Assembly: GCA_030144725.1 (NCBI GenBank)
Contig: JASKMD010000021.1
Span: 4,905,509-4,969,508 of the forward strand
Direction of reading: 5' to 3'
DNA from: Haematococcus lacustris
Lineage: Eukaryota > Chlorophyta > Chlorophyceae > Chlamydomonadales > Haematococcaceae
Length of the DNA stretch: 64,000 nt
Shown piece by piece: positions 3,445 through 61,110 of this stretch. How positions within the stretch are numbered: the first letter of the stretch is position 1; each line of letters opens with the position of its first letter. Position numbers and translations under genes: made by a program. Under the pieces are notes generated by a model. That model worked only from the letters and a program-made list of their open reading frames with translations, was not told where the DNA came from and did not search any database.

Positions 3445-4647
3445 GTGGGGGGGTCCACCAGATCCTGGGGGCCCCTGCCCCCGGCGAGGACCGTTGCCAG
3501 AATGAAATGGGCCTCCATGCTGACCTGGGTGGTGGTGGTGGTGGTGGTGATGGTGGGGCCCACCATGGTGGCGGCCAGCCCCAGCCCCAGCTGCATGAGG
3601 GGTGCCATGGGGGGGCCCATGGGGGGGGCCACGGGGTCCGCCTGACATGCGGCTAGCCTTCTCTGGGATGAAGTTGGGGTCACGGAAAGCCGCTGGGGAG
3701 GGGCCCGGGGGGGCGGAGGCAGTCCGCTGGTAGGCACCCGCCAGACCTGGTGACTGGAAGCTAGCCTGCGGCACGGGCAGCACACATGTGATGTGAGCAT
3801 GCGGCCACAGCTGCAGCTGCAGTAGAACACCCGGGCTACTGTAGCTTGGATAGTCAGCATGAGTAGTCAGGGACAAAAGCACCAAGTCAGGAGCAAAGTC
3901 AGCTTCTCACGCTGGCTGGTCTCGGGCTGCGCTGCTGCTACTACGTGTCCTTGACCACGCCAGGTACTGGCCCGCTCTGTAGAGAACAAGCAGGCGTGCT
4001 GTGCCAGATCGCCGATCCGCGCACCTTGTCCTTGGCTGGCGGCTTGTTCTCCTGCACCGCTCCCGTGTTTAAGGTCCCAAACTGGATACTCGGCTCTGTG
4101 ACGCTGCCTTCGGACGCCTTCTCTGACGGCTTCGCTGCGTCTGCATGCATAGGCTCTTGACGAATGAAGACCAGATGCCCACGGGCACCTACCGCGACCG
4201 CAACCTCACCTCCTGGGCGACTAGCTACCGAAGCAGGCTTCGCATCCACATTCTTGACTGGTTCCACAGCCTTTGTGAGCACCGCCGCAAAAGACGGGCC
4301 CTTGCCCCAGCCCCCTGTGCACGCTTCTTGCGTCGTCAGCAGGGGTGCACGGTCCTGCAGCAGCTGCTGGGTTGTCGCTGCACGCACCTGCTGCTGGCTT
4401 TGCTGGTGCCGCCTGGTCAGTCCCAGGACTGGCGCCATTAGAAGGGGGCAACGCCCCGTTCTCCTTTGACCTGCATCGCGGCTCGCCAGTGGCTGAGTCA
4501 ACAGCGCAGTCGCCGCGCCCGTGCACCCCGACAATACCTCTGCCTGTTTTGCTGTGCGTCTGGATGCGCTGATCCGCCGTGACGCCCGCCTGCTGCTTCA
4601 CGCCCTCTGCCTCTACTGCTACCGCTGCTGGTTCCACGCCCGCTCAT
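1..4647 (-). CDS. eIF4G-like translation initiation factor, N-terminal part (3' end beyond window)
   Basis: Probable scaffold subunit of the cap-binding eIF4F complex, only its disordered N-terminal half being present. The chosen ATG at 4647 opens an SGRGTSSGSSRGRG-type Arg/Gly/Ser-rich start like plant eIF4G. One exon ends at 4025 (donor GTGCGC) after a motif IQFGTLN; the next starts at 3765 (acceptor GCCGCAG) and continues in phase with AGAYQRTASAPPGPSPAAF, resembling the FGS..ARTSSAPP block of plant eIF4G. Further on come His-, Ala-, Gln- and Pro/Gly-Tyr/Met-rich stretches (3600-1700) and a KALVIKNPSTKEAIDL segment near 1110 that resembles the 'IxIxDP' eIF4G motif. An Ala/Pro-rich exon covers about 370-1. 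The MIF4G domain would lie outside the window. Reading frames change at homopolymer runs, so exon limits are incomplete. The alternative is another PABP-associated disordered protein. Confidence 0.55.
116..160 (+). repeat. (GGGGCA)n tract in eIF4G-like exon
   Basis: Seven to eight hexamers. On the minus strand they code alternating Ala-Pro in the frame that matches the flanking Ala/Pro-rich exon. Confidence 0.85.
2045..2062. repeat. Poly-G run at a frame break in the eIF4G-like gene
   Basis: A run of about eleven G on the plus strand separates two good minus-strand reading frames. Upstream the frame reads ...GMAAHLGPP; downstream the sensible frame reads FHYHQPQQLPPAPGG then MAFAPANMHPSMG. 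The frames differ by one base, which suggests a homopolymer length error or a real indel. Confidence 0.5.
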
Positions 4648-6899: not shown

Positions 6900-7133
6900 G
6901 CTAGTGCATTGCAATTTGCAAACCTTGGGCCTCAGAATGAGGACGTGGGTGTAGACAGCAGAAGCACTCAGCACTCCTCGAACACTGAATAGTAGCATCT
7001 CTGCTTAACACGTCTATTGGATGCGGCTCCTACGTGGTTTGAAGGGATGGTCACTGTCGTGGCTGCTGTGCGGCGCATCCAGCAAGCTGGTTTTGTATTT
7101 TAGCTTGACATATCTAGGGTCAGCTGTGAGTCA

Positions 7134-7211
7134 GGATGTCCCAACATGGGGTTGGTAATCTTCATGCAAGTACTCGTTCAATACTGAACCGTTTTCGATA
7201 GCGTTCATCAC
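7134..7211 (+). repeat. Dispersed repeat 'CCAACATGGGGTTGGTAATC' family, copy A
   Basis: The block TCCCAACATGGGGTTGGTAA plus about 50 bases, ending GATAGCGTTCATCAC, recurs in inverted orientation at 27481-27560. Its core also occurs at 30048-30092, 55741-55774 and 57171-57205. It looks like the end of a transposable element. Confidence 0.7.
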
Positions 7212-7700
7212 ACTGGCAGCTGCGAATTATTGCGCATCTACTGGCAAGCGGCGCGTTACCTCTTGCCAGTGAGGCCATGCCGGCGCAAGCGAGCGCGGAT
7301 ACACCTCAGCTGCTCACCATCGATTGTTCTAGTGGTATGTAGCGGCATCAGCGATTGAACTGCGCCTTGCATCGAGCAAGAAGTACAATCTCAATTCAGC
7401 CCGCCAGGCTCACTCCGCAAGCCTTTCACTGGTGCAGGCTGCGTCGGAGTGCCATCGTTGGGCAAGTAATAACTCGACATTGTAGCGAAGTGCGAATGGA
7501 TAGAGGTCTCTCTAGGCAGCCACACAGAAAAAGGGACCCCCTTGCACGAATCGGCATGTTGTGAGCTGACCACTGTGAGTTATTAGACTTTCGAGTTATT
7601 ACTTTGTTCGTAACTCAACGACACAGCTGTTGGAGAAGAAAGCACGGCATTTCATTGAGTAGGCTTGTGGGAACATACTTTGGCGTGACTCAACTCTGCC
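7212..7700. other. Intergenic stretch, no supported gene
   Basis: Lower GC than the host genes, with short open frames on both strands and no recognisable domain. It probably belongs to degraded transposon sequence following repeat copy A. Confidence 0.25.
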
Positions 7701-24866: not shown

Positions 24867-24867
24867 G

Positions 24868-25056
24868 CGGGTCCTCATCTCAGCATGTGGTTTACATTTT
24901 GCAGCTGGATGGTGATGACAAGCTATCTTGCGGGTCCTCATCTCAGCATGTGGCTTACATTTTGCAGCTGGATGGTGATGACAAGCTATCTTGCGGGTCC
25001 TCATCTCAGCATGTGGTTACATTTTGCAGCTGGATGGTGATGACAAGCTATCTTGC
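24868..25056 (+). repeat. 63-bp tandem repeat, three copies
   Basis: The unit starts CGGGTCCTCATCTCAGCATG and ends GATGACAAGCTATCTTG. It repeats at 24868, 24931 and 24994; the third copy is one base shorter. Confidence 0.95.
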
Positions 25057-26739: not shown

Positions 26740-27180
26740 AGGGGGCGGGGGAGGGGAAGGGGAGCAGGCAGCGAGCAAGGGAGCGGATGGGAAGGCTGGG
26801 AGGGGTTGGGATTGGAGGGGGTGGGCTGGGAGTGGTTGGGCTGGGAGGGGGTGGACAGGGCGGGGTTGGGCTGGGAGGGGTGGGCTGGGAGGGGGTGGGC
26901 AGGCTTGATGAGGTGGGCTCCTGCAATGATGGGTGGAGGGGGGGCGGGCATGCTGGGTCGTTGCATGCCGTGGCCTTGAACCTGCCTGGTGAACATGATG
27001 TAACTTTGAAAGTGTTAAACTGATTGAGGCCTGGGCTGTTTGATGTGCAATTTGTTTCAATAGATGGGCCAATGGGTCAAGAACAAGGTCTTTGTATCGA
27101 TTTCCCTATAGGTGCAACGGGTGCAACACAGTGGTGGACACAGTGGAGGAGGGGGGGGTGTAAGCCGGTGATACCTTAGT
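26740..27180. other. Pyrimidine-rich (minus strand) tract and intergenic sequence
   Basis: 26740-26925 is a G-rich plus-strand, C/T-rich minus-strand low-complexity tract directly upstream of copy 1. Similar pyrimidine tracts precede the starts of copies 2 and 3. The rest shows no supported gene. Confidence 0.4.
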
Positions 27181-27480
27181 GTGCGCCGACCGAAATGATG
27201 TATTCGGCGGAAGCGAATACAACCAGATGTTTTAGTTGCCCCGTCCAGGTGCCCTGCACGCCCGGCAGGCATCGCGTTGGGTGTCGGCCGGACATTCCAT
27301 TTGTGCACAACCAGCTTACTACGCTAGGTAGATGGGGTCACAGCGATGTGGCTCACCGTGCCAAGGAGACCCGTCTCGCCGATGTGATTTGTTCGCGGGC
27401 ACATGTGGCAGTACGCGAGCAAAGACTCCAATGGCTAGCGCTGATGGTCAGATAACGCGAACTAAACCTCCGATGCCAAT
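27180..27480. other. Intergenic stretch, no supported gene
   Basis: Open frames on both strands (for example plus 27195-27455) carry no recognisable motif. It is probably part of the mobile element that ends in repeat copy B. Confidence 0.25.
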
Positions 27481-29692: not shown

Positions 29693-30092
29693 CTAGTCCC
29701 TACTGTGCCGCCCACCATTACAGCGATACAGCGCTGCCACACACAGTTTCGAGTTTCTTCACATCCTCGCCAAGCGGCCTGCACCATCTGGAAGCGCGCG
29801 CAGCCATGTTTGCCGGACTTCGGTGGTGTGCGCCACCGACATGTCGTGCATCGCTAACGGATAGGCAAGGACGTAGCTTACCAGTGTAGCTAACCACGGT
29901 CTGTGCTTGGGACACATCCGGGGTCACATGTGTCTGCCCGCTTCGAAAGACTCCGTTTGCGATCCCAGTCTTACATCATACGCGCCATATCACATTGCAG
30001 CAGACGCAGCAAACGTTACATCAAATGATGGAGTCGATGGGCTCCACTTGCATGAAGATTACCAACCCCATGTTGGGAACGCCTGACGTGGA
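29693..30092 (-). repeat. Dispersed element, copy C (inverted relative to 57171-57560)
   Basis: Reads, in reverse complement, nearly the same 390 bases as 57171-57560: CCCAACATGGGGTTGGTAAT, CATCATTTGATGTAACGTTT, CCCCGGATGTGTCCCA, GCTATCCGTTAGCGATGCAC and GTTTGCCGGACTTCGGTGG blocks. Identity is roughly 85% by eye. It is a dispersed, probably non-autonomous transposable element downstream of POLQ. Confidence 0.8.
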
Positions 30093-30592: not shown

Positions 30593-54922
<24,330 letters not shown>

Positions 54923-55640: not shown

Positions 55641-55740
55641 GTGGCAGCTTACATTAGTACATGTATCATGCAACATTGGCTAACCGCCCCCCCGGGGGTC
55701 AGGCAGTAGCTCAAGGGGTGGCTCTCGCAGCCTCAGGGTC

Positions 55741-55872
55741 AGGCGTTCCCAACATGGGGTTGGTAATCGTCATGCAACTGCCACCCGTCTACTTCATCAT
55801 TTGATGTAACGTTTGCTGCGTCTGCTGCGTCTGCTGCGTCTGCTGCGCACTCGACATTTGAGTACATCAGAG
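55741..55872 (+). repeat. Dispersed repeat family, copy D
   Basis: GTTCCCAACATGGGGTTGGT and CATCATTTGATGTAACGTTT blocks as in copies C and E, then four CTGCTGCGT units, then a 28-bp sequence (GCGCACTCGACATTTGAGTA plus CATCAGAG, 55845-55872) identical to 57019-57046. Confidence 0.75.
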
Positions 55873-57046: not shown

Positions 57047-57170
57047 CATGGTATAATTCATCTTTTCAAATCCTTTGCAGAGGGCCGTGCATCTGTTTGT
57101 GAAGCTTTCGTTGCCAGGTGTAGGGGGCAGCATGTGTCAGCTGCTGGTCTAAAAGTTGTAGCGGGTTGGT

Positions 57171-57560
57171 CAGGCGTTCCCAACATGGGGTTGGTAATCT
57201 TCATGCAACTGTAGCCCACCTACTCCATCATTTGATGTAACGTTTGCTGCGTCTGCTGCAATGCGATAATGCGTTTTATGTAAGACTGGAATTGCCATCA
57301 GAGTCGTTCGATGCGGGCAGCCACATGTGACCCCGGATGTGTCCCAACCACAGACCGTGGCTAGCTACACTGGTAAGCTACGTCCTTGGCTATCCGTTAG
57401 CGATGCACGACATGTCGGTGGCGCACACCACCGAAGTCCGGCAAACATGGCTGCGCGAGCTTCCTGATGGTGCAGGCCGCTTGGCGAGGATGTGAGGATT
57501 CCCTTAAGTGTTTACGGCAGCGCTACATCGCTATAATGGTGGGCGCCTGGCTTGCAAATC
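57171..57560 (+). repeat. Dispersed element, copy E
   Basis: About 390 bases matching 29693-30092 in reverse complement, from GGCGTTCCCAACATGGGGTT to AGCGCTACATCGCTATAATG. Confidence 0.8.
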
Positions 57561-57793
57561 CACCCCCCCTCCAACATCTTTGCTGCTTTTTGCCACCGCC
57601 GCTGAGCTCCAGCCAAACTCCCTACACTCTTGTCCAAGATGACTCTTACGTGCATTACCAGAACAAAGAAACAAAGATATTGGATTGACGCACGATGATT
57701 GGGACCACTCCAAAGGCACATCAATCGTTGGCTGCAGGTGTATGATGAGTAGTTACCCCCTTCCACCACCCCCTTCCAGTCCACCTAGCCCTA
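57561..57793. other. Spacer between element copy E and the TIR transposon
   Basis: No gene is supported. A plus frame (57467-57688) crosses it without recognisable motifs. Confidence 0.25.
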
Positions 57794-57943
57794 GGTCACC
57801 CCGGCCATTGGCCATGCCAATCCGTGCCAGGCCTGCGCATCGCACCACGCCCTAGTGGAGGATAGCGAAGGCTATCGCGGTAACTCGCGCGCGCTGAAAC
57901 TCGCGTTTTAGGCTGAAGCCTTGTCCCAGTACACCGCCCGCCA
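57794..57943 (+). repeat. Left terminal inverted repeat
   Basis: 150 bases, outer end GGTCACCCC, inner end ACCGCCCGCCA. It contains the palindromic words GCTATCGCGGTAACTCGCGC and CGCGCGC. Confidence 0.95.
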
Positions 57944-57959
57944 TTCCCGCGGACTGTGA

Positions 57960-59670
57960 ACATGGTCGCTTGCTGCAGCCTGGGGCTCAACGGGGTGCCA
58001 CCGTACGTGGGTCGCAGGTCGAAGCGCAAGATTCCCTGGGTTGGGTCGGGACCCCTCATGGCCCGGGCCCTTCCTGACACCTGGCGCGAGACCTGCCTAA
58101 CCTTCCCTCCAAGCAAGCTGAGCATATCACTAAGGTGTCAGCAGCACCGTGCGTGGACTTTAATTCGCTACCGTGCACTCTGCTGAAACCTTGACCCCAT
58201 CATTTCGGGGCTTCTGTCAAGACCATAAACTTTTTGGCCTTTGGTCCTTTCCACGTGCTTCCACCTTTCACTGATAGCTAGGCGGGTCTATATTCCGGGA
58301 TGAACCCCAGGCAAGCTCCATCACCTTGTGTGGTACATACAATGACAAAATGTGGCAGAGGGTGGATTTGGCATGGGGCAATCTCATCATAGGAGGCGAT
58401 TGGCGGCACCCTGTGTTCATCCCCGACGGGTTGGACCCTGTGCCGCCGTTAGGCGCCCTCATTGCTACCTTTCTCGCACTGTGCGCGAAATTGATACCGA
58501 AATATGCGATGAGCCCTCCTGGACCCCGACGCCGCGCCCTCCTGGAACGCCATAAAGCGATACGTGCCAAGCTGGTAAGTGGTGGCAATGGCAGTGGCGG
58601 ACACCTCCATTGTGGCGGAATCCACCATTGTGGCGGGAACCCATACCTTAACATCCTCCTCCTCCATCCTACACCCTGCAGAGCCCTACCGAGCTGCCAG
58701 CCCTTGAAACAGCCCTTGCAACACCACAACAGTCAAGCAGGGGTGCCAGCACATGGGGCCATAAGCGCCCACGCACCTGCCTTGGCCGGGGCGCCCAGCA
58801 GCAGCTGAGCATGGACCAGCAGCAGCTGCAGGGTGCCCAGCACCAGCTGGCTCAGGACCAGCAGCAGCTGCAGGATGCCCAACGCCAGCTGAGCCTGTAT
58901 CAGCAGGAGCTGCAGGGTGCCCAGCACCAGCTGGCTCAGGACCAGCAGCAGCTGCAGGATGCCCAACGCCAGGTGGCTCTGGACCAGCAGCAGCTGCAGG
59001 GTGCCCAGCACCAGCTGGCTCAGGACCAGCAGCAGCTGCAGGATGCCCAACGCCAGCTGAGCCTGAATCAACAGGAGCTGCAGGGTGCCCAGCACCAGCT
59101 GGCTCAGGACCAGCAGCAGCTGCAGGATGCCCAACGCCAGCTGAGCCTGTATCAGCAGGAGCTGCAGGGTGCCCAGCACCAGCTGGCTCAGGACTGGGTG
59201 CTGAGCTTGACCCTGATGCCCACAGGCTGCTTCGCACCATCACTGGGTCACGGGCCATGCATGCAATGTTCTTCCCTGCAGATGGGGTTGCGCCCATGTG
59301 GTCTGAGACTGCATGTGCGTGTGTGAGGCACATGGGCAGCAAGCCACAGCAGTGCATGTGTCATGGAGCATCTACCCTGAGCAGCATACCCATGTTTGGA
59401 CGTGTGACACTGGCAAGTGACAAGAAGGAAGATGCTGAGTGCTTGAGGCTGCTGCATGCACGGGCACCACACATTGCAAGCGCCCACATGACCTTGAATG
59501 TGCATCTGTTGAAGGAGTATGCACGGGAGTGCTTGGGCTGGAAGGGCAAGAGGTTGACGCAGAAGAAGCCATTGCTTAGGGCTGACATCCTAGAACATCT
59601 GAGGTGGGAACAAGAGATGGAGGAGGATCAGTTGGCTGAAGTGGGGGTTGACGAGGCAGATGAAATGTAA
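57960..59670 (+). CDS. Transposon-borne gene, coiled-coil Gln-rich protein, function unknown
   Basis: Proposed exons: 57960-58133 (MVACCSLGLNGVPPYVGRRS ... FPPSKLSISLR, donor AG|GTGTCA); about 58308-58571 after CCCCAG (TLCGTYNDKMWQRVDLAWGN, PGPRRRALLERHKAIRAKL, donor CTG|GTAAGT); and from about 58681 after CCTGCAG (SPTELPALETALATPQQSSR ...). The third exon enters a 42-bp tandem repeat coding 14-residue (two-heptad) DQQQLQGAQHQLAQ units. After the repeat (59190) the best frame is displaced by one base and reads ELDPDAHRLLRTITGSRAMH, then KKEDAECLRLLHARAPHIAS, LKEYARECLGWKGKRL and a TAA at 59668-59670. The C-terminal part is charged and possibly SAP-like. No transposase signature is seen. It could be the element's own unusual recombinase, an accessory DNA-binding protein or captured cargo. 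Confidence 0.5.
58811..59190 (+). repeat. 42-bp tandem repeat coding two-heptad coiled-coil units
   Basis: About nine units alternating CAGCAGCTGCAGGGTGCCCA and CAGCTGCAGGATGCCCAACG types. The unit is an exact multiple of three, so the coded heptads stay in frame. Confidence 0.92.
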
Positions 59671-59993
59671 GGCCAGGCACTTTCGATTGAAACCAGCAGC
59701 ACCAACTGAGCCAGAATAGCACGAACTGAGCCGATAAAGCCGATTAAGCCAATGGCCAAGAAATTGACAGTGCCATGCGCCCAACTTGCACAGTTTCAGC
59801 TGGCGTGGCGTGACTCAGTCTCGTGGTGTAATGACATGGCTCGGTAGCATGGCGCACTGCGATGGCCTACTCCGCAGTACTGCGAGGCTGCCTCCATGGT
59901 GCGAACTTTGCTACGGACGCCACGGAGCGCCTCGCCACCCTGCTCTTGTAGGTGGGTCGCTGCTTGTTTGCGCTATCTCAAGTTTCGACCTGG

Positions 59994-60143
59994 TGGCGGG
60001 CGGTGTACTGGGACAAGGCTTCAGCCTAAAACGCGAGTTTCAGCGCGCGCGAGTTACCGCGATAGCCTTCGCTATCCTCCACTAGGGCGTGGTGCGATGC
60101 GCAGGCCTGGCACGGATTGGCATGGCCAATGGCCGGGGTGACC
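59994..60143 (-). repeat. Right terminal inverted repeat
   Basis: Exact reverse complement of 57794-57943; immediately followed by CCTA. Confidence 0.95.
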
Positions 60144-60231
60144 CCTACTCCTTGCCCATGCCCGCCCATCCCAGCTCTCCAGCCCTCCCCTCCTCCCACC
60201 CACTCCCACTCTCTCCCACCCCCTGCAAGCC

Positions 60232-60408
60232 ATGGGCAAGAGACCGAGCACAGCTCTCCGTGCCCATCTGAAGGCGTTGAATAGCTCTCCCCAGGCAGGC
60301 CACCGCCACTGCCCTAGTGGTATGAAGGCTGCGGTGGGCAGGGCACATGCTAAGGTGCAGCGGCTGCGGGATGTCGAGCAGTCCCTAGTGTCAGGGACTC
60401 TAATGTGA
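60232..60408 (+). pseudogene. Coiled-coil repeat-family protein, copy 3 (fragment)
   Basis: ATG at 60232 opens GKRPSTALRAHLKALNSSPQ, then AGHRHCPSGMKAAVGRAHAK and VQRLRDVEQ, and a TGA at 60406. The AG.(H/K)CP..(I/M)KA signature and RLRDVEQ match copy 2 closely. The sequence then hits a short GTCAGGGACTCTAATGTG duplication (60388-60435). The C/T-rich tract before the ATG resembles that of the other copies. It begins 88 bases after the TIR transposon's right end, so the transposon may have inserted into or beside this older element. Confidence 0.5.
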
Positions 60409-60409
60409 A

Positions 60410-61110
60410 CGCCTGAGTCAGGGACTCTAATGTGGACGGAGTGGGATCTAAGGCTGTTCGCGCAGTTGCTGTAGGCAGCCGTTAAAAGGCACATAGATGT
60501 GCATGTGGCGGTACAGTGGGCTGTCAGGACCCACCCTGGTTCATTCCCCAGCAGCTGCTGCAGCAGCTCCACACGCTTCTTCCACAATGGCTGCTGTACG
60601 TTGCTATCGGCTGGCAGGCCTTTGCCGCCAGGGACTAGGTCACTCTAACTCAGTCTCTAGCTGCACACCGTCCGCTTGACGTCACTCCGCGCCGACTTGC
60701 TGAGCCCTCCCCCCTTCCGCACACCCCTGGCTCTGACCATCTGGGTCATTGTACTGCCACAGGAGGTCAATGACTACCTTGATGACATGACAGTGCATCG
60801 CAGTCCCCTAGCAAGCCCTCCTGGTGCACCACATCCCTCACCCGGTCCAGCTGCTGCAACCCCTCCACGGCTGCTGCGTCCTCAGGCTGTGTATCAAAGC
60901 GCTTGGCATCACACATTTGCGGGCATGGGAGCCTTCCATTTCCCCTGCCAGGTCCTGGAGATTTAGGGACATGTTGGGATCCAAGGTGCCAAGGTACACC
61001 TCAGGATCAGCTGGCGGGGCTGGGACTGGGCGGGCCGCTGCCCCAGGGGGTAGGTCAGTGACAACTAGGTAAGGGGGTGGTAGGCTGGCTGCAACCCAGG
61101 GGGAGGGGTG
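60410..61110 (+). other. Degraded element sequence downstream of copy 3
   Basis: Possible exon after CCACAG at 60762 reads EVNDYLDDMTVHRSPLASPP. No family is recognised. It may be the decayed remainder of copy 3. Confidence 0.25.

Follow-up and report, generated by a model that had tools for sequence, protein, structure and literature searches.

A non-autonomous transposon copy with 150-bp terminal inverted repeats and its full-length relatives in Haematococcus lacustris

Non-autonomous elements formed by internal deletion include Ds of maize and KP of the P family, which belong to another transposase family and differ in duplication length, while Kolobok elements use the target site TTAA. 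The passages cited here give the same target, TTAA, for piggyBac (PMC7351741) and describe Ginger elements as having TGTNR termini, long terminal inverted repeats (TIRs) and an integrase-like fold, with 4-bp duplications and CCGG or CCGT targets in Ginger1 and duplications of 4-5 bp otherwise (PMC2836005; PMC10045372). In the descriptions cited, Sola elements are DDD transposons of 2-9 kb with 4-bp duplications, TIRs of 11-1124 bp and variable termini (PMC10741241), and Sola2 elements also produce 4-bp duplications, which are AT-rich in Dictyostelids (PMC3627910). Here we analyze an element at positions 57794-60143 of a 64,000-nucleotide stretch of Haematococcus lacustris DNA (the window). We consider it very probable that this element is a non-autonomous, internally deleted copy of a Haematococcus family of TIR transposons.

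Ends of the element, family size and empty sites

The ends of the element and the repeat that hosts it are as follows.
57544..57793, + strand: host repeat, left side (stretch tested in the empty-site comparison, CCTA included)
57790..57793, no strand: left target-site duplication, CCTA, directly outside the left TIR
57794..57943, + strand: left TIR, 150 bp, starting with GGTCACCCCGGC
59994..60143, - strand: right TIR, 150 bp, 100% identical to the left TIR
60144..60147, no strand: right target-site duplication, CCTA, directly outside the right TIR
60148..60347, + strand: host repeat, right side (stretch tested in the empty-site comparison)

An inverted-repeat scan of 57400-60600 revealed only one 150-nt pair, namely the two arms of the element, which are 100% complementary and lose identity at their inner ends. 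The exact inverted ends and the CCTA on either side, both predicted from the letters of the sequence, were thus confirmed. Allowing up to three mismatches, the terminal 25-mer was found at just two sites in the window, both of them TIR ends, while shuffled sequences gave an expectation of 0. In the genome searched (308 Mb, H. lacustris/pluvialis) the exact 25-nt terminus occurs 610 times, divided equally between the strands (305 each), and its reversed control not once. Chance origin of the TIR pair is excluded by these counts. For comparison, the section cited of the Haematococcus genome paper gives a size of 316 Mb, with transposable elements accounting for 50.8% (PMC10400597).

The original prediction had proposed searching for further copies of the TIR and for empty sites with a single CCTA, and our analysis revealed both. 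The TIR is not confined to the window locus; a genome search yielded 1109 first-look candidates, and all 40 that were scored, the two ends in the window among them, were 98-100% identical. Among the first 100 listed places of the terminus, neighbors within 8 kb formed 31 convergent pairs, 73 to 4,311 bp apart, and 4 same-strand pairs, while no divergent pair was present. This convergent pairing indicates that the terminus acts as an element end. Exact 4-bp direct repeats were found at 16 of the 19 TIR pairs in the fetched stretches (CCTA, AGCA, TTCA, TGAT, CCCC, TACT, TGAA, ACAA, TCGT, TAGT, AGCT, TGCT, AAGA, CACT, CCTA, and TCAG). The last of these, from the outer pair of a cluster with several TIRs nested in it (E90), carries less weight than the other 15. 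This scoring left out stretches with a single full TIR within reach, such as L010, L011, L014, L015, L016, L025, L026, E41, and E166.

The right flank of the element has 141 first-look candidate copies genome-wide, 40 of which were scored. Six loci were fetched out of the 39 scored host-repeat copies that remain when the window's own copy is excluded, and in all six the flanks are joined with a single CCTA, at 93.6-98.7% identity over 450 bp. Insertion of the element at CCTA is shown by these empty sites. The element is a genuine insertion, and its bounds are exact to the base. With identical TIRs, target-site duplications, empty sites and, as described below, a missing core, the earlier view of a recently inserted, non-autonomous DNA transposon with 4-bp duplications was upheld. 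Other members of the family also have empty sites. That of E36 is at L011, with a single AAGA and 100% identity over 173 nt, and one was found for L017, which is nested in another copy of the same transposon family. The empty sites of L019 and L020 are weaker, with mismatches at the junction.

The element sits within an older repeat family, which is represented by the two stretches listed above. The neighboring stretch 57169-57545 probably belongs to the same host repeat as 57544-57793; inverted copies of it, 90-93% alike, stand in the window at about 29709-30087, and 7129-7220 and 55737-55828 match it in part. In addition, a joined-flank match identified 27097-27380 of the window as a copy, at 85% identity, of the repeat hosting L019.

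Full-length relatives and the internal deletion

Between its TIRs the element contains the remains of a gene, for which the following features were recorded.
58350..58574, + strand: exon 1 of the remnant transposase gene, MWQRVDLAWG..., 75 amino acids with a basic end (reading frame; a related exon is present in models P0005 and P0025)
58575..58681, + strand: putative intron, 107 nt, GT-AG (GTAAGT...CTGCAG), with its donor AAGCTGGTAAGTAG also in the full-length elements E38 and E45
58682..59323, + strand: exon 2 of the remnant gene by translation, with a 43-residue out-of-frame tail at its end; stop at 59324-59326
58805..59194, + strand: tandem array of 14-residue (two-heptad) units, nine full units plus LAQD, 42-bp spacing, from the translation
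59195..59197, + strand: deletion junction with the 3-nt filler TGG; about 2.3 kb, including the DDD/E core, missing relative to E38
59198..59667, + strand: 3' part of the transposase gene, with a post-core cysteine motif and a helical C-terminal domain (DNA and protein matches); stop at 59668-59670

The relatives of this gene were found in two ways, as a longer composite query retrieved 54 proteins and a profile search 66. In the latter set 62 proteins are from Haematococcus, named hypothetical protein where inspected, and the exceptions are P0069, P0092, and P0094 (source 'ena') and P0104 (source 'lgn'). P0016 and its close relatives carry the motifs missing from the window copy, namely CDWSE, SDGCAxQFK, and SHFKGRHDSEGG, and in a single gene model, P0025, the core is joined to a coiled coil and an N-terminal exon that resemble those of the window. 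P0020 has 107 matches in the genome. At 26 of its 30 best loci the same TIR (at least 120 nt) lies approximately 290-350 nt beyond the frame. Two of the four remaining loci have just 21 nt of the TIR, one is cut by the contig end and one is without a TIR. Whole elements, each with a 4-bp duplication, were recovered at three of four extended loci (E36, 6,374 bp; E38, 4,609 bp; E45, 5,364 bp), while the fourth, E41, has one end only. Full-length elements thus range from approximately 4.6 to 6.4 kb, and their termini are GGTCACC or GGCCACC.

Fold comparison located an RNase H-fold core in the full-length relatives. In an alignment of ten sequences SDG and the D and E of HDSEGG are invariant, and alignment together with secondary structure points to D39, D124, and D165/E167 (P0020 numbering) as candidate catalytic acids. 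Of the 49 sequences in a larger alignment, 35 have the first D (13 are gapped there), 42 have the second, 41 have D165 and 45 have E167. The family shows all three features of a DDE/D TIR transposon: shared TIRs, a fixed 4-bp target-site duplication with empty sites and, in its full-length members, an RNase H-fold core with conserved acids. Three more groups of Haematococcus transposases were also observed (P0034; P0038/P0043/P0048; P0077/P0079), with aligned members 38-52% identical to P0020.

The window copy differs from these elements by a deletion. Its 5' part aligns to E45 1-1356 and E38 1-1287 at 89-90%, and the block 59198-60143 aligns to E38 3662-4609 at 96.6% DNA identity, while the sequence between E38 1287 and 3662 is absent from the DNA alignment. 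The junction reads CAGGAC, then the extra TGG, then GTGCTGAGC. A tblastn search of P0020 against 57794-60143 matched residues 239-394 alone (98%), and the window copy does not encode the catalytic core needed for an autonomous element. The deletion took away the core and shifted the frame between the coiled coil and the C-terminal part.

The gene had originally been described as spliced, with a basic N-terminal exon, a two-heptad repeat array and a charged C-terminus, and as lacking any known transposase motif. The exon and the array were confirmed, as was the lack of a transposase motif in this copy, and a charged C-terminal open reading frame (ORF, 59194-59667) does exist. However, it lies in a different frame from exon 2. 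Since the spliced frame departs from it at 59195-59197 and stops at 59324-59326, the window gene is not one intact gene. Splicing at 58575-58681 is predicted from the sequence. None of the six window ORFs given had a Pfam-A match above cut-off. A SAP-like C-terminus, suggested earlier as a possibility, was not established; the Ish1 match in the relative P0034 is sub-threshold (E = 0.028), and a structure search with the C-terminal part gave no clear match. A protein search with the C-terminal ORF returned 15 matches, 14 of them from H. lacustris. The other, 91 aa long, comes from a contig of 1,343 bp that bears the label Bosea and is probably a contamination.

Further short copies have breakpoints of their own on E38 (L009, 1235|3946; L018, 1087|3700; L028, 1119|3538; L020, 395|4498; L031, 672|2689; L056, 859|2813), and extra interior sequence is retained in L017, L021, L022, and L027. 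Three copies, L012, L013, and L019, share one 1,127-bp form with breakpoints 817|4302, which has lost the coiled-coil array and is a multiplied non-autonomous subfamily. The full-length elements are not uniform either, as gaps and insertions set E36 and E45 apart from E38.

The full-length copies most likely encode a single transposase, consisting of the N-terminal exon, the coiled-coil array, a CxxC-rich region, the RNase H-fold DDD/E core and the helical C-terminal domain. Such a transposase would bind the 150-bp ends, and its core would cut them and join them to target DNA with a 4-bp stagger, in a cut-and-paste manner. Internally deleted copies that keep their ends would be moved in trans, and the window copy may be mobilized by the full-length transposase, since both its ends are still intact. 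The window copy would have lost its interior first and then inserted at CCTA in the repeat.

Points against this reading and alternative explanations

Several observations weigh against the reading of the element as a recently inserted, deleted member of this family. The 100% identity of the TIRs could in part come from gene conversion. Moreover, three of the 19 TIR pairs are without a 4-bp duplication; two of them (L031 and the inner pair of E90) are found within inverted duplications, and the third, L027, is unexplained. The 5' block is approximately 89-90% identical to E36, E38, and E45, versus 92-97% for the 3' block, and because the 5' identity is just at this level, the direct parent of the window copy was not found among these three elements. 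Furthermore, the top Foldseek matches of the core in PDB are Argonaute/PIWI proteins and endonuclease V, which have RNase H folds as well; these matches have low TM-scores, and only one of 822 reached E <= 0.001. With respect to the two blocks, the step in identity (57794-58440 vs 59198-60143) is also seen in most short copies, though not in L020, and points to recombination between subfamilies or to a mixed ancestry.

An assembly palindrome mistaken for a transposon is hardly credible. Perfect palindromes do occur in this assembly: the flanks of L031 (558-3159) are exact inverted copies over 557 nt, and in the E90 cluster (L023/L024, C90:6163400-6178000) several copies of the TIR stand inverted within 14 kb, their flanks inverted as well, both being either genuine inverted duplications or assembly palindromes. 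In the window, however, the flanks outside the element are not inverted copies of each other, the interior between the TIRs is not palindromic, and the CCTA duplication is direct. An artefact is rejected by the six empty sites, all of which match the junction to the base. The original prediction had left a choice between a novel transposase and a non-autonomous element carrying cargo. The element is indeed non-autonomous, but both readings of its gene, as cargo and as a new transposase, proved wrong. Capture of a host gene, as in Pack-type elements, might be suspected from a window copy without a recognized transposase domain and from several gene models that encode solely these parts. Both coding halves, however, match the two ends of E38, E36, and E45 in the same order, with the core between them, and this is why we regard the gene as a transposase remnant; the 15 C-terminal ORF matches, not all of which were placed in the genome, gave no sign of a separate host gene. 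We thus find gene capture very improbable.

A different possibility is that the shortened gene is retained for a product of its own, comprising the N-terminal part and the coiled coil (289 aa), for example a repressor acting in mixed oligomers with the full transposase, for which the KP elements of the Drosophila P family offer a parallel. The spliced frame of the window copy is open through the coiled coil, and the 5' part beyond the start of the array is kept in the short copies L009, L017, L018, L022, and L028. On the other hand, the deletions vary by copy, and the array is missing from the 1127-bp type as well as from L020, L031, and L056, a pattern that gives no hint of selection for a single product. 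Retention of this kind appears improbable, and we continue to read the element as an internally deleted copy of the family.

Superfamily placement and meaning

Compared by described features, Sola is the best superfamily candidate for the Haematococcus family. The two agree in 4-bp duplications, element length (4.6-6.4 kb), TIRs (150 bp) and a core compatible with DDD. They differ in that the Haematococcus duplications are not AT-rich, unlike those of Dictyostelid Sola2, and in the GGTCACC termini. The Sola triad is DDD, and at the third position of the Haematococcus core D165 and E167 are both conserved. Ginger1 and Ginger2 resemble the family in 4-bp duplications, long TIRs and an integrase-like fold. 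They are nevertheless a poor fit, as the ends are GGTCACC or GGCCACC rather than TGTNR, none of the 16 duplications is of the CCGG/CCGT type and there is no integrase match in Pfam. PiggyBac and Kolobok do not fit either, with TTAA in none of the 16 duplications. As in Ds and KP, the Haematococcus short copies keep intact ends, have lost interior sequence and vary in their breakpoints.

We class these elements as a family that is new within a transposon type already known. We think it possible, though unlikely, that the eukaryotic DDD/E transposons include a superfamily with 4-bp duplications that has not been described and to which the full-length elements belong, or that these at least form a deeply distinct lineage without a name. 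The transposase of such a lineage would be characterized by a two-heptad coiled-coil array, which is variable, together with a CxxC region, a helical C-terminal domain and the motifs CDWSE, SDGCAxQFK, and SHFKGxHDSEGG. P0104, with 26% identity to P0020, hints that it may have spread beyond these algae.

Apart from the element, the window contains tandem arrays at 24867-25054 (63-bp unit, three copies) and 37647-38063 (53-bp unit, about six copies), and a 10-bp minisatellite array at 41479-42200, the end of which is approximate.

In this alga, a producer of astaxanthin, what appeared to be a new transposase or a cargo gene becomes a transposon family that is large, defined and recently mobile. 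Since no model in Pfam-A, integrase models included, matched the core, similar transposases elsewhere may escape notice. In Haematococcus itself, parts of the transposase sit in dozens of gene models named hypothetical protein, and the exact end sequence, the 4-bp rule, the empty sites and the full-length relatives ease tests of activity, the masking of repeats and the cleaning of gene sets.
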